From Candidatus Woesebacteria bacterium RIFCSPLOWO2_01_FULL_39_10 (GTDB lineage: Bacteria > Patescibacteriota > Microgenomatia > UBA8517), in NCBI GenBank assembly GCA_001793015.1, contig MGHC01000029.1:15381-54189 (forward strand): DNA of 38,809 nt, in the 5' to 3' direction. Below are positions 1,757 through 23,356 of the stretch, one piece after another (the stretch's first letter is position 1; each line of letters starts with the position of its first letter). The notes beneath the pieces are model-generated. The model made no database searches and was not told where the DNA came from. It worked only from the letters and a program-made list of their open reading frames with translations. A program made the translations under genes and the position numbers.

Positions 1757-3676
1757 ATGAAAAATAATTCTTTAAAGTGGGAAGTACTCCACAAATCGCC
1801 AGTCACTAGTCACAAGTCACCAGAAATTATTGATATTCTTTTGGAAAATCGGGGACTTAACACAAAGAAACAAAAAGATGAATTTTTTAATCCTACAGAC
1901 CCTAAAAAGATAGAACTAAAGGAATTAGGAATTAGCGATAAATCTTTAAAAAAGGCAATTAAGAGGATAAAAAAAGCAATCGATAAGGACGAACATATGA
2001 TAATTTACGGTGACTATGATGCTGACGGGGTATGTGCAACAGCAATTTTATGGGAATGTCTTTATTCTTTAACTAAAAACGTTCAACCTTATATTCCCGA
2101 TCGGTTCACTGAAGGGTATGGAATGAATGCTGATACAATCTCAAAACTCAAATCGGAAAACTCAAAACTGAGACTAATAGTGACTGTAGATAACGGTATA
2201 GTAGCTAATGAGGCAATTGATTGTGCAAACGAACTAGGAATTGATGTTATCGTTGCTGATCACCATTTGGAGGGAAAGAAACTTCCAAAAGCACATTCCA
2301 TAATTCACACGACCAAGATTTGCGGATCAGCTATTGCTTGGATATTCTCTCGCGAAATCAATAAAAAACTAATCACTAGTCACACCCTCGGCCTGAGCTC
2401 GGGTCGAAGGCAGTCACCAGTCACCAATCTTGAACTTGCTGCCATAGGAACGATTGCCGATCAGATGCCACTTCTTGGACCAAACCGTTCCTTTGCGAAG
2501 CATGGACTTGAAGCGTTGAATAAAACCAAAAGACCGGGACTAATCGCTCTTTTTGAAGAAGCGGCGTTGATTGAGAGTCAAACCCGCCTTCGCCAAAAGG
2601 CTTCGGCGAGGCAAGTCGGAACTTATGAGGTTAATTTTGTTATTGCTCCACGGATTAACGCTATGGGGAGAATGGAGCATGCGATAGATTCGCTAAGACT
2701 TTTATGTACAACCAATAAACCTCGGGCTAATGAATTGGCGCGACACTTGGCAAAGACTAACCGTGAGAGACAAAGAATAGTTGATGAGATCGTTTTACAT
2801 GCAAGAAATGCTGCCCTGAAAATAAAGTGGCGAGGAGCAATTATCCTTGTCCATGAATCGTATCACGAGGGAGTCATAGGTCTAGCGGCGTCAAAACTAG
2901 TGGAAGAATTTTATCGACCTTCAATAGTTATTTCTAAAGGATCGGAATTTTCCAAAGCATCTGCCCGTTCAATTTCAGGAATTAACATAATAGAGTTGAT
3001 TAACAAAGTTGGAATTATTGAGGGCGGCGGCGGTCATCCAATGGCCGCAGGATTTACTATAAAAACTGAAAAGATTGAGAAATTTATACGAAAGTTCGAT
3101 AAAGCCACCAAGCCCTATTTTACTGAAGATGTTTTACATAAAAAACTTAAAATAGATAGTGAAATTGATTTTGAGGCGATTAATTTAGATCTTTGGGAAG
3201 TTTTAAAGAAATTCGAGCCGACTGGCATTGGGAATCCAAGACCTTGCTTTGCAACAAAACAGGTTAACGTCGCGAGTGCCAGAGTTGTTGGGGGAGATGG
3301 AAAACATTTGAAATTAAATTTGGAAAAACAAGGAGTAACTTTTGAAGCAATAGGATTTGGGATAGGAAATCTTTACGTGAACCTTTCTTCTACAAAGCCA
3401 ATCGATGTTGCATATACCGTTGATGAGAATATCTGGAACGGGAATAAAAAATTACAACTTAAAATTAAAGATATGAAGCTCCCCACGACCTTACGGTCGG
3501 GGTATCCCTTCGGTCTGAGCACTCAGGGTCGAAGACTTCTCCCCTCGCTTCGTCGGGAGCGGAATCCCTCGCGCCGTCGGCAAAGCCTTTGGCGACGTTC
3601 GACCGAAGCGAAGGTCCTTCGCTCCATCCGCCGAGTCAGACTCGGGGGTATTTCGCGAAGGGGGATAAAAGTTTAA
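1757..3676 (+). CDS. recJ: Single-stranded-DNA-specific exonuclease RecJ with several in-frame repeat insertions
   Basis: A 5'-3' ssDNA exonuclease of recombination and mismatch repair. DHH-family motifs are intact: YGDYDADG at residues 84-91, VTVDNG (142-147), VADHH (166-170) and ELAAIGTIADQMPL (226-239). The DHHA1 signature GGGGHPMAAG is near 423-432, followed by an OB-like domain. The ATG at 1757 was chosen because the longer upstream frame runs antisense into cca and has no RecJ-like sequence. Four stretches look inserted: residues 15-22 (heptad repeat), 206-223 (heptads around a GC-rich core), about 275-287 (palindrome) and 575-639, where a 197-bp dispersed repeat replaces the expected C-terminus with an Arg-rich tail. 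All catalytic motifs lie outside the insertions, so activity may be kept. It is followed after 4 bp by the RelA/SpoT gene. Confidence 0.93.
   Translation: MKNNSLKWEVLHKSPVTSHKSPEIIDILLENRGLNTKKQKDEFFNPTDPKKIELKELGISDKSLKKAIKRIKKAIDKDEHMIIYGDYDADGVCATAILWECLYSLTKNVQPYIPDRFTEGYGMNADTISKLKSENSKLRLIVTVDNGIVANEAIDCANELGIDVIVADHHLEGKKLPKAHSIIHTTKICGSAIAWIFSREINKKLITSHTLGLSSGRRQSPVTNLELAAIGTIADQMPLLGPNRSFAKHGLEALNKTKRPGLIALFEEAALIESQTRLRQKASARQVGTYEVNFVIAPRINAMGRMEHAIDSLRLLCTTNKPRANELARHLAKTNRERQRIVDEIVLHARNAALKIKWRGAIILVHESYHEGVIGLAASKLVEEFYRPSIVISKGSEFSKASARSISGINIIELINKVGIIEGGGGHPMAAGFTIKTEKIEKFIRKFDKATKPYFTEDVLHKKLKIDSEIDFEAINLDLWEVLKKFEPTGIGNPRPCFATKQVNVASARVVGGDGKHLKLNLEKQGVTFEAIGFGIGNLYVNLSSTKPIDVAYTVDENIWNGNKKLQLKIKDMKLPTTLRSGYPFGLSTQGRRLLPSLRRERNPSRRRQSLWRRSTEAKVLRSIRRVRLGGISRRGIKV
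1801..1823 (+). repeat. Heptad repeat AGTCACN near the recJ start
   Basis: Three consecutive heptads AGTCACT, AGTCACA and AGTCACC encode residues around 15-22 (SPVTSHKS) of RecJ. They are the same unit as in cca (opposite strand) and as at 2372-2425. Confidence 0.85.
2372..2425 (+). repeat. Composite in-frame repeat in recJ: heptads flanking a GC-rich core
   Basis: Heptads (ATCACT, AGTCACA) stand before, and AGTCACC twice after, a 27-bp core at 2385-2411. The core (CCCTCGGCCTGAGC...) resembles the stretch at about 3507-3534 of the long repeat at the recJ 3' end (CCCTTCGGTCTGAGC...). The 54 bp are exactly 18 codons and sit between DHH motifs III and IV. Confidence 0.8.
2586..2615 (+). repeat. 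Short imperfect palindrome in frame in recJ
   Basis: GCCTTCGCC and GGCTTCGGC flank an AAAA loop, and the segment encodes the basic peptide RLRQKASAR (residues 277-285) just before the conserved FVIAPRINAMGR block. The core AAGGCTTCGG followed by GGCAAG is shared with the in-frame element at 38416-38445. Confidence 0.65.
3473..3669 (+). repeat. Long dispersed repeat, copy A, forming the 3' end of recJ
   Basis: This 197-bp GC-rich segment begins ATGAAGCTCCC and ends GAAGGGGGATAAAA. It matches, with few differences over most of its length, the reverse complement of 18090-18326; shorter relatives lie at 21138-21275 and 23301-23350. It carries internal palindromes (for example around CGACCTTACGGTCG) and is open in several frames. 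It lies in frame at the end of recJ, encoding an Arg-rich tail that includes RNPSRRRQSLWRRSTEA. Confidence 0.92.
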
Positions 3677-18089: not shown

Positions 18090-18326
18090 TTTTATCCCCC
18101 TTCGCAGAAAACCTTGGGCGTCCTTCGACAGGCTCAGGATGGTGAGCATTGTCGAACCATAAGCCCGTGGATGAATGCGAAGAAATTTCTGCTTCGGTCG
18201 AACGTCGCCAAAGGCTTTGCCGACGGCGCGAGGGATTTCGCTCCCGACGAAGCACGGGGAGAAGTCTTCGACCCTGAGTGCTCAGACCGAAGGGATACCC
18301 CGACCGTAAGGTCGAGGGAGCTTCAT
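18090..18326 (-). repeat. Long dispersed repeat, copy B, downstream of mazF
   Basis: A 237-bp copy of the element at the recJ 3' end, here on the minus strand and outside any known gene. From its ATGAAGCTCCC end it matches copy A almost base for base through the CGACGTTCGACCGAAGC segment and again at the GAAGGGGGATAAAA end. A block of about 45 bp carrying TCCTTCGACAGGCTCAGGA and GTCGAAC is nested near that far end. An open frame through it still encodes RNPSRRRQSLWRRSTEA but is not supported as a gene. Confidence 0.92.
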
Positions 18327-18342
18327 ATTGCTTAGTTATTTT

Positions 18343-18955: not shown

Positions 18956-19100
18956 GGTTCGAATCCGAGATGGGTGTTTTTGCTGCAGGACAGGGATTCG
19001 CTACGCTCACTCAGGACATTCGACATTATACATAGGGCCGAAGGCCATGAGCGACCGAAAGGAGTCGAATGGCTGGCGACTGTAGACGCTATTCGAACCT
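18956..19100. repeat. Repeat cluster F (modules shared with 20100-20230)
   Basis: A block at 19010-19074 with CTCAGGACATTCGACATTAT, the hairpin GGGCCGAAGGCC, ATGAGCGACCGAAAGGAG and TCGAATGGCT differs at only a few positions from the block that abuts tRNA-Gln at 20166-20236. Inverted ATTCGA/TCGAAT words recur through it and it ends at TATTCGAACC. It fills most of the 273-bp gap upstream of mazE together with the operator region. Confidence 0.8.
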
Positions 19101-20099: not shown

Positions 20100-20230
20100 T
20101 CGAGCTGCGGGACAGGGTATCCTTCGATTCGTCATGAGCGGTTCGACTTTGCTCACCGTCGAATGACTCACTCAGGACATTCGACATTATATATAGGGCC
20201 GAAGGCCATGAGCGACTGAAAGGAGTCGAA
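20100..20230. repeat. Repeat cluster G abutting the 3' end of tRNA-Gln
   Basis: It contains TATCCTTCGATTCG, GAGCGGTTCGACTTTGCTCACC, CTCACTCAGGACATTCGAC, the GGGCCGAAGGCC hairpin and GGAGTCGAA, the last base of which directly precedes the tRNA CCA end at 20231. It makes up much of the 364-bp gap between 20054 and 20419. Confidence 0.8.
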
Positions 20231-20304
20231 TGGCTGCGGGGCTAGGATTTGAACCTAGATTGCGCGGTTCAGAGCCGCGATGCCTACCATTAGCAGACCC
20301 CGCA
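20231..20304 (-). tRNA. tRNA-Gln (anticodon CTG), CCA encoded
   Basis: Minus strand. The 7-bp acceptor stem TGCGGGG/CCCCGCA pairs fully. The anticodon arm CGCGG-CTCTGAA-CCGCG reads CTG, decoding CAG (Gln). The T arm CTAGG-TTCAAAT-CCTAG is perfect. The D arm (TGC...GCA) is short but contains GG. G73 and CCA are encoded (20234-20231). A CTG anticodon for Gln is normally accompanied by a TTG isoacceptor elsewhere. Confidence 0.93.
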
Positions 20305-20709: not shown

Positions 20710-21489
20710 TTAAAATAACCCAGCTTGTTTAGTTGGTGTGTCTTTTGGATAGGAGAAATCGACCTCGACTTTTTGTAAGGTGTTCCATTTATCTTTAAGA
20801 AGAAGGTGTCCGTTTTGAAGCGCGTAGTCGTAAATATCTCGGGTAATTAACACATCTGCCTCGCAATATTTTTTTAATTTTTCCAAACTTTCCTTATCTC
20901 CCTTTTGCCAATAATATACGGCATTTATTCCCACATCCGTTTTTTCCCGATCCAGTGTTTCTTTTGCGATTGCGTCCAAGGCGATTCGATGACCAAAGAC
21001 TTCTTTGACTTTTTGCATAATGTCAAAGTGTGGAAGTTTTTGAAAAGGGAAGTTGGTGTATGGAGAAAGAGCGGGAATATCAAATCCAAGCGAATTAAAT
21101 CCAATTATCCTATCAGCACTTTGGAAAAGCGGCCACATTTTATCCCCCTTCGCGAAATACCCTGGGCGTATGCCCGCGGATGAACGCGAAGAATATTTCG
21201 CTTCGGTCGAACGTCGCCAAAGGCTTTGCCGACGGCGCGAGGGATTTCTCTCCCTACGAAGCGAGGGAGATTCATCAAAATCCTTTTCCCAGAAGCTTTG
21301 CATTTTGCCTTCGACTACGCTCAGGACAGTGTGTCCTTCGATAGTTCGATTTTGCTCACCACTAAAGCTTTCATCAATTTTTCTTGAATAAACTGAAACA
21401 ATTGAGACTCCAAGATCAGCTGGGTTAAATCCCTCAATATCTCCAAAAAGTTTCTTCGTTTCAACATCGAAAAATACTTCCGAAAGCAT
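20710..21489 (-). CDS. DEDDy-type 3'-5' exonuclease with two in-frame repeat insertions
   Basis: An RNase H-fold exonuclease-like protein of 259 aa. The metal-binding residues are in place: FDVETKK (D8, E10), IGFNSLGFDIPAL (D137) and YCEADVLITRD (Y208, D212). The spacing Y-x3-D marks the DEDDy type, as in YprB/PolB-related nucleases. Residues about 42-62 (SGEQNRTIEGHTVLSVVEGK) are encoded by a CCTTCGAC/GCTCAGGAC module, and about 74-117 by long repeat copy C. Removing both would join VSVYSRKIDE to KMQSFWEKDF and then MWPLFQSADRIIGFN, giving a compact exonuclease core. The nucleic-acid substrate is unknown. Confidence 0.85.
   Translation of the reverse strand: MLSEVFFDVETKKLFGDIEGFNPADLGVSIVSVYSRKIDESFSGEQNRTIEGHTVLSVVEGKMQSFWEKDFDESPSLRRERNPSRRRQSLWRRSTEAKYSSRSSAGIRPGYFAKGDKMWPLFQSADRIIGFNSLGFDIPALSPYTNFPFQKLPHFDIMQKVKEVFGHRIALDAIAKETLDREKTDVGINAVYYWQKGDKESLEKLKKYCEADVLITRDIYDYALQNGHLLLKDKWNTLQKVEVDFSYPKDTPTKQAGLF
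21138..21275 (-). repeat. Long dispersed repeat, copy C, inside the exonuclease gene
   Basis: A 138-bp version of the element, in the gene's own orientation. Compared with copy A it lacks a segment of about 55-60 bp between the CTCCC near its start and the TCGCTTCGT part, but keeps the ATGAATCTCCC and GAAGGGGGATAAA ends. It encodes the shared peptide RNPSRRRQSLWRRSTEA in the same frame as copy A. Confidence 0.9.
21307..21366 (-). repeat. Short module (CCTTCGAC...GCTCAGGAC) inside the exonuclease gene
   Basis: CCTTCGACTACGCTCAGGAC is followed by TCCTTCGATAGTTCGAT and TTGCTCACC. The same words occur in clusters E, F and G and nested in copy B. Here they are translated within the exonuclease (residues about 42-62). 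Confidence 0.75.
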
Positions 21490-22103: not shown

Positions 22104-23356
22104 TTCCCTATGAATAAGATTACATTGGGTAAGTTGCGGCCGGGGCCGATTTTGTAGCCTCCGCTCCATAAAGCAGTTGAACCACCGTCGTCGAGATTTA
22201 GAGCATTTTCCATACCCATTGTCCGAAGTACACGTGCGGCTTCAGCAACAGTTGCTGAATGAACAACACCTATATAAACAGTATTTCCTTTGTTTGCAAC
22301 AAAACTTCTGCCTCCTTTAGAACCTTTTTTGGGATCGTCATCTCCTCCGAATGCAATATTTCCGCCTTGTACTAGCATTGGAAAATTCGAGAGCATACTG
22401 TCAATTCCAGTATCTCTACCCCATTGCGATGCCTGTCCCACGAAACGGATATATGAACCACCAAAAATAACTGCTGGATTGTTGCTGTAGACATTATTTC
22501 CAGAATTAAAGTAGGTTTTTTTATAATTCATCACCAAAAGATCGTAAGTGTTAGTTTTTCCAGCACATGAAGGGTATTCGGCAGGGCAAAAGTAGCTGCC
22601 GTTTACTCCTGCGTATGCACCGTTTCTGGAAACATATGTTGCTAAAGGAAGAACCGGGCAATCATTCGAACAATCGCTATCAGAGGCTGTATCTACAATT
22701 ACTTTTGTTGAACCCAAATCTCCTGCAACAATACTTACTAAGTATGAACCAAGTCCTTCAACAGCAACTTGCTGACGACTGTATCCAGCACCCGGTGGAG
22801 CATTATTCTGGGGAACATTAGCAGGAATTGTGAATGACGTAGCAAGTTCTTCTTCTTCTTTTTTGATTGCCGCTGTAATTTGGGAAAGCACATCGTTGGC
22901 GCCACTAAAATCTCTTTGGGAAATTTTAAATAAGACATCAGCATATTGTTTCTCGAGAGCGAGAGTGTCTTTTGATTTTGATCTTAAGTCGAGTAAATCC
23001 TCATAAACAGCAATTGATTGATTGAATGTTTTTTGCATGGTCGCAATTTCCTTTTGCAGCTCTTCATTTTTCTTTTGAGGGTCTTGATTTTTCAGTTCTT
23101 CCAACTCTTTGGCAATTTTTTCCAATTCAACCAAATTCTTATCTTTTTCTTCTGTTAAATTTTGGACGATTGTGGTGAGAGTTGTTATTTTTCTATTTGC
23201 AAAAAGATAGCCGACCGCCAGGATAATTATTAGAATAACTATTATTGGAATGTGCTTGTCGGGTTTAAAACGAAACTTTGCAAGCTTATATTTGGGTAAA
23301 TTTATCCCCCTTCGCGAAATACCTTGGGCGTAAGCTTGAGTGAGATTCATTTTCAC
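22100..23356 (-). CDS. Membrane-anchored phosphodiester glycosidase (NAGPA domain) with coiled coil
   Basis: A 418-aa protein with one membrane segment at about residues 35-54 (HIPIIVILIIILAVGYLFA), a coiled coil at about 62-170 rich in Glu/Lys heptads, and a C-terminal NAGPA domain. NAGPA hallmarks are visible: ANGSYF-like VNGSYFCP, GRDTGIDSML, and NLDDGGSTALW near the end. Two cysteine pairs (DCSNDCP; CP...SCAG) suggest disulfides outside the cell. Family members cleave sugar-phosphate diesters, for example in wall or exopolysaccharide metabolism. The first residues (about 3-18, NLTQAYAQGISRRGIN) are encoded by repeat copy D, which also supplies one of the two possible ATGs (23356 or 23350). 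Confidence 0.88.
   Translation of the reverse strand: MKMNLTQAYAQGISRRGINLPKYKLAKFRFKPDKHIPIIVILIIILAVGYLFANRKITTLTTIVQNLTEEKDKNLVELEKIAKELEELKNQDPQKKNEELQKEIATMQKTFNQSIAVYEDLLDLRSKSKDTLALEKQYADVLFKISQRDFSGANDVLSQITAAIKKEEEELATSFTIPANVPQNNAPPGAGYSRQQVAVEGLGSYLVSIVAGDLGSTKVIVDTASDSDCSNDCPVLPLATYVSRNGAYAGVNGSYFCPAEYPSCAGKTNTYDLLVMNYKKTYFNSGNNVYSNNPAVIFGGSYIRFVGQASQWGRDTGIDSMLSNFPMLVQGGNIAFGGDDDPKKGSKGGRSFVANKGNTVYIGVVHSATVAEAARVLRTMGMENALNLDDGGSTALWSGGYKIGPGRNLPNVILFIGK
23301..23350 (-). repeat. Minimal dispersed repeat, copy D, at the start of the phosphodiester glycosidase
   Basis: A 50-bp unit keeping both ends of the long element (ATGAATCTC... and ...CGAAGGGGGATAAA) and nothing of its middle. 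It is co-oriented with the gene and encodes QAYAQGISRRGIN; the same GISRRGI peptide is encoded at the end of copy A in RecJ. Confidence 0.85.

Follow-up and report, generated by a model that had tools for sequence, protein, structure and literature searches.

In-frame repeat insertions in a DEDDy exonuclease-like gene of a Woesebacteria genome and a putative Microgenomates element resembling Rickettsia palindromic elements

How does a DEDDy exonuclease-like gene come to carry two repeat-like segments within its reading frame, and what kind of DNA are these segments? The question was raised by a 259-aa open reading frame in a stretch of 38,809 nucleotides (the window, G000:C29:15381-54189) from the draft genome (1.15 Mb, 38 contigs) of Candidatus Woesebacteria bacterium RIFCSPLOWO2_01_FULL_39_10, and the features concerned are collected in Table 1. 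The encoded protein matched PF13482 (RNase_H_2), and all parts of the DEDDy signature were present (DxE, the second Asp, YxxxD and an RNase H-like fold). The residues named in the initial annotation, D8, E10, D137, Y208 and D212, were found at exactly those positions and were invariant among 23 aligned proteins, and Foldseek placed the fold with RNase T and with the exonuclease domains that proofread for family B polymerases. Homologues from 22 relatives were about 190-219 aa long and continuous across residues 1-72 and 117-259 of the window protein, whose sequence flanking the insert was about 80% identical to these relatives and retained nearly all conserved residues.

Table 1 Repeat-derived features of the window and the exonuclease-like gene that carries two of them
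Feature	Position in window	Strand	Evidence
DEDDy 3'-5' exonuclease-like gene, 259 aa, with both insertions inside	20710..21489	(-)	PF13482 match, invariant catalytic residues, fold matches
Net 132-nt in-frame long-element insertion, residues 73-116	21142..21273	(-)	Empty site in L036, 22 homologues without it, covariance model match, fold z -3.4
Long-element insertion including the flanking target codons GAT and AAA	21139-21276	(-)	
REP-like palindromic module (CCTTCGACTACGCTCAGGA on the + strand at 21308-21326, second half-site TGTCCTTCGAT)	21308..21342	(-)	Exact pattern; longer than the native turn
Long-element copy, C-terminal end of a RecJ-like ORF (phase 1)	3472..3669	(+)	Covariance model hit G000:C29:18852-19049
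Long-element copy, composite with REP-like modules, intergenic	18091..18327	(-)	Covariance model hit G000:C29:33471-33707
Long-element remnant, first residues MNLTQAYAQGISRRGIN of a phosphodiester-glycosidase-like ORF	23302..23351	(-)	DNA match and open frame

Comparison with the homologues confirmed that both inserts are in frame and repeat-derived and are absent from the homologues, as had been claimed. The 44-residue segment was missing from all 22 homologues, which run directly from residue 72 to residue 117, and the empty site could be read at codon level in one relative (L036), with GAT TTT GAT AAA ATG TGG vs GAT TTT GAT [132 nt] AAA ATG TGG in the window. At the first site, 21 of the 22 homologues had no extra sequence; the window protein (SFSGEQNRTIEGHTVLSVVEGKMQSFW) exceeded the homologue L034 (NFNEVEGKMQSFW) by 14 residues, and the short module adds about 14 codons within residues 44-61. 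The exception was the homologue of G014 (76% identical), with a different 10-residue repeat-like insert, GESNMVSSVEPVEG, at this site, so that either the turn would have been hit twice or the G014 insert would be a diverged copy. The native GTCGAAGGA found here resembles the end of the short module, which may be the reason why this turn was hit. Conserved non-repeat sequence at both segments was found in none of the 22 relatives. The 11-residue spacer between the inserts was also described correctly, and the estimate that about a quarter of the protein is repeat-derived proved slightly generous (net 44 plus about 14 codons, or 22%).

The AlphaFold2 models with and without the inserts showed that the core was kept and that the inserts were predicted with low confidence. 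The insert-free L034 had a mean pLDDT of 94, with strands at residues 28-38 and 44-53 and a helix at 54-65; in the window protein the structural elements followed one another in the same order, most of it at pLDDT 93-98, and the values were about 41-58 in the long insert and below 50 at residues 44-48. Low pLDDT in the inserts fits disorder and partly reflects the absence of aligned relatives there, and in these models both inserts are probably disordered on an intact DEDDy core. The inserts had been expected in surface loops, which agrees with the first site, a beta turn between two strands, but not with the second, which maps between L034 residues 58 and 59 within the first turns of the helix 54-65 and splits its start, leaving only residues 118-123 as the remainder of the helix after the long insert.

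The long insert represents a repeat that was matched 22 times in the genome at DNA level (E <= 0.001; best other copy 2.6e-50). Alignment of the own-genome copies gave the unit ATGAAGCTCC[hairpin]GGTATCTTCTCCC-[hairpin CGCTTCG...CGAAGCG]-CTTCGCATTCATCC[hairpin]GGTTTTCTGCGAAGGGGGATAA, which has about 129-132 nt net between the conserved ends AT-GAAGCTC and GGGGGAT-AA, and typical copies measured 129-138 nt. As a single strand the element folds into an outer stem and three hairpins, maintained by compensatory changes. The consensus fold has 40 pairs, and in a 9-copy alignment made with MAFFT without use of the structure, 91.9% of the cells pair vs 43-54% in slid versions, 15 pairs had changes on both sides, and the covariation score was reached by none of 500 shuffles. 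The same support for the fold was given by 57 copies in an alignment fitted to the model. In the exonuclease copy, which folds at -58.7 kcal/mol (z -3.4), the first hairpin has been lost and another is present internally. The two ends form no inverted repeat, the closing stem being an internal TCTCCC paired with the end, and no clear target-site duplication was found at the junctions, where at most a 2-bp AT is repeated. A search of Rfam with the long element returned no family at its threshold and no intron family match. A divergent subfamily, starting ATTGAAGCTCCGAG and ending GCGAAGGTGGACTAAA, comprised L111, L112, L113, L115 and L116, and L115 lies in frame within a nucleotidyltransferase-like ORF.

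The short module is exact over CCTTCGACTACGCTCAGGA, for which 0.19 matches with up to 3 mismatches would be expected by chance in the whole window. Its pattern, CCTTCGACNNNGCTCAGGA, had 9 exact copies in the genome vs 0 for the reversed control. Two of these nine were the last hairpin of the long elements L016 and L019 (near versions were seen in L011 and L013), and four formed the terminal hairpins in another structured repeat family, which ends GCGAAGGCGGATTAAA (L023, L027, L029 and L031). The short insert appears to be a REP-like hairpin in its own right, and since hairpins of this kind also terminate some long-element copies, the two repeats are modular relatives. The initial annotation had seen two different repeat types here, but the two are not unrelated. 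Another exact copy, L026 (G000:C22:9901-9919), sits in frame inside a cysteinyl-tRNA synthetase-like ORF of 499 aa (PGGRSFDSAQDDAASRRHMEWDSPWGKG). Module-like matches were also found near two of the 8 Y1_Tnp genes in the genome, but these were weak, and a shortened Y1 transposase-like gene at a contig end (L079:2-622) contains another in-frame repeat, RAKSPRFSRKGSNSLFTASLHPWTKSPRFSR. The window also holds a 70-nt intergenic direct repeat at 19006-19075 and 20167-20236 (97% identical, the second copy adjoining a tRNA at 20234-20304) and an inverted repeat of GTGACTAGTGACT-like units at 1285-1320 and 1788-1823, with arms about 470 nt apart.

The exonuclease is one of many host genes. Copies of the long element were found inside genes for UvrA, GatB, Sua5-TsaE, VanW, a DUF2298 protein, ribulose-phosphate 3-epimerase, FemAB, a DHH protein, a Mur ligase and others, with Pfam domains flanking the in-gene copies on one or both sides. 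The recurrent target was AT|AA, and in-gene copies stood at codon boundaries as NAT|AAN, or NTT|ATN if reversed. A second exact empty site was found in rpe, where relatives have GAA AAT AAA ACN vs GAA AAT[129 nt]AAA ACT in the filled gene. The gatB of G002, single-copy in its genome, is also filled and its relatives lack this insert; in uvrA the site was too variable among relatives to fix the exact junction. The gatB of G023 (L226) has a different in-frame REP-type composite, KVTAGHPELVEGSLAHAGPTSVGDSSSTTRNDM, so gatB has been hit independently in the two lineages (G002 and G023). No insertion common to different species was found.

To avoid selecting open copies only, each element was removed in silico at NAT|AAN, and all six frames of the rejoined flanks were searched. 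Three cases were left out of the count, namely the short ORFs L117 and L121 and L110, which is an antisense shadow of rpe. Excision restored 14 long genes, 9 with the element in sense and 5 in antisense orientation. The insertion point lay between codons in all 14, and the element was open throughout in 13 of them, uvrA, gatB, rpe and sua5 among these. The only broken gene was a peptidase-like one with an antisense copy (L010, G000:C1:23785-23919), which stands at a codon boundary and has one stop in a hairpin. According to the sites in 110 long ORFs, the expected codon-boundary fraction was 56% for ATAA and 45% for TTAT, which means a joint probability of about 1e-4 for 14 out of 14, as a post hoc statistic. 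The net lengths of in-gene copies (126, 129, 132 and 156) were multiples of three, and comparison of length modulo three between gene and intergenic copies gave p = 0.065, a test biased by the definition of gene copies. Sense phase 1 was free of stops in most copies and was never seen mid-gene, so stops alone do not account for the phase bias. Phase 0 peptides were more hydrophilic (GRAVY -0.82 vs -0.43), which suggests selection for a tolerable peptide, and the element-encoded peptide was net basic.

We consider, with a probability of about 0.8, that the long insert represents one copy of a Microgenomates mobile element, small and non-autonomous, which works like the Rickettsia palindromic elements. 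The element inserts precisely at AT|AA, and its in-gene copies, placed at codon boundaries, nearly always stay open and add a hydrophilic peptide to the reading frame. The fold would be what a mobilising enzyme recognises. The additional residues would be translated as part of the host protein, which would tolerate them as a bulge without much order, and insertions that break genes would be purged by selection.

It is improbable that the inserts were instead recruited for a function, with the basic peptide altering how the exonuclease, UvrA or RecJ binds nucleic acids. Several hosts do act on nucleic acids (the exonuclease, uvrA, recJ, gatB and cysS), an excess of intragenic REPs has been reported for repair genes (Di Nocera and others, PMC3733652) and the peptide charge would suit such a role, but unrelated genes were hit as well (rpe, FemAB, the Mur ligase, DUF2298 and VanW), and the lack of any insertion found in common between species gives no sign of long-term retention. 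We regard it as quite improbable that the insert is skipped after transcription and the proteins are normal, whether by RNA splicing or by ribosome bypass as with the byp elements of Magnusiomyces mitochondria, which, as cited in PMC6649704, are also palindromic, lie in coding genes and are reportedly passed over by the ribosome. The strong and stable fold would fit skipping, and the AT repeat at both junctions could provide take-off and landing sites. But skipping needs no frame-keeping, and the multiples of three and the 13 open copies out of 14 argue for translation, unlike byp as there described; in addition, take-off and landing codons would differ in many copies (AAT vs GAT), and splicing lacks a matching intron family. 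It is very improbable that the exonuclease gene is decaying or was misassembled and is in frame by luck. The draft state in 38 contigs and the single stop of L010 would fit this, but all catalytic and nearly all conserved residues are retained, the flanks are similar to relatives, and the same element recurs in genomes that were assembled independently (one consists of a single contig) as well as in further single-copy genes.

The distribution of the long element was surveyed with a covariance model and an exact core pattern. With the model, 30 copies were found in the own genome, and 20 of the 38 relatives had matches; at a stricter cut-off the element was present in 7 of 137 genomes sampled across the class. 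The core pattern gave 14 loci among 84,980 species (one genome per species), all in Patescibacteria, and the carriers were Woesebacteria, Gottesmanbacteria, Amesbacteria, Levybacteria, other Microgenomates and one Uhrbacteria; no match to the core was found in viral contigs. The element is patchy within Patescibacteria, and nearly all carriers are Microgenomates. The own-genome uvrA copy shares 96% identity over 134 nt with one from a different family's genome, which argues for recent spread of the long element.

As for the mover, Y1 transposases did not co-occur with the long element in the own genome and relatives. A RAYT or other Y1_Tnp enzyme was rejected as a candidate: Y1_Tnp is absent from the single-contig genome G008 despite its 5 good copies, and G007, G016 and G017 show the opposite, Y1_Tnp with no copies. 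Reverse transcriptase (RVT_1) was rejected too, being absent from G000 and from G008. Because neither Y1_Tnp nor RVT_1 tracks the element, the mover would be another enzyme, or one lost after the spread.

The closest known systems are the Rickettsia palindromic elements (RPE; Ogata and others 2000), which add in-frame peptides to conserved genes (PMC2229807, PMC10969869); a Rickettsia guanylate kinase with such an insert is translated and active, and the RPE have terminal inverted repeats of 12 bp (PMC2229807). The likeness extends to size (about 105-150 bp), strong fold, several families per genome, positions both between genes and in frame in conserved genes, an added peptide of about 30-50 residues and reduced host genomes. 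Unlike RPE, the long element has several consecutive hairpins rather than one long palindrome, lacks terminal inverted repeats, has a defined AT|AA target with exact empty sites, can be read in both orientations and, in the scan of 84,980 species, had its core in Patescibacteria only, whereas RPE are confined to Rickettsia. Compared with the descriptions of RPE, the long element would work like them but is a separate family, because it has no terminal inverted repeats and a different taxonomic range. The short module is like the GTAG/CGTC REPs, short in-frame palindromes inside genes, often repair genes and sometimes two per gene (Di Nocera and others 2013, PMC3733652), the likeness being one of description, and as in the REP / RAYT system the palindrome is short and occurs many times. 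The long element has 4-6 times the length of those REPs and a conserved architecture of its own. Like MITEs, the long element is small, non-autonomous, repeated and structured, but it has no terminal inverted repeats, no clear target-site duplication and no related autonomous element in searches for Y1_Tnp and RVT_1. No description of the element in Patescibacteria was found in the open-access literature, and the family is apparently undescribed.

A wider reading remains tentative, and we lean against it: the element would represent a new class of coding mobile element, independent of terminal inverted repeats and of any Y1 transposase or reverse transcriptase of the host. It would enter AT|AA sites in folded, single-stranded form, would be shaped for reading in either orientation at codon boundaries and would thereby supply Patescibacteria with new protein segments again and again. 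For annotators, in-gene segments of this kind are real insertions and not sequencing errors. The exact empty sites and the near-identical copies across genomes make movement of the element directly testable, and it is also testable how 43 additional residues are tolerated by proteins such as UvrA or GatB. Selfish DNA lying in frame within conserved genes has been known mainly from Rickettsia and Wolbachia, and an unrelated, structurally well-defined family in the ultra-small Patescibacteria suggests that such DNA has arisen repeatedly in reduced genomes.
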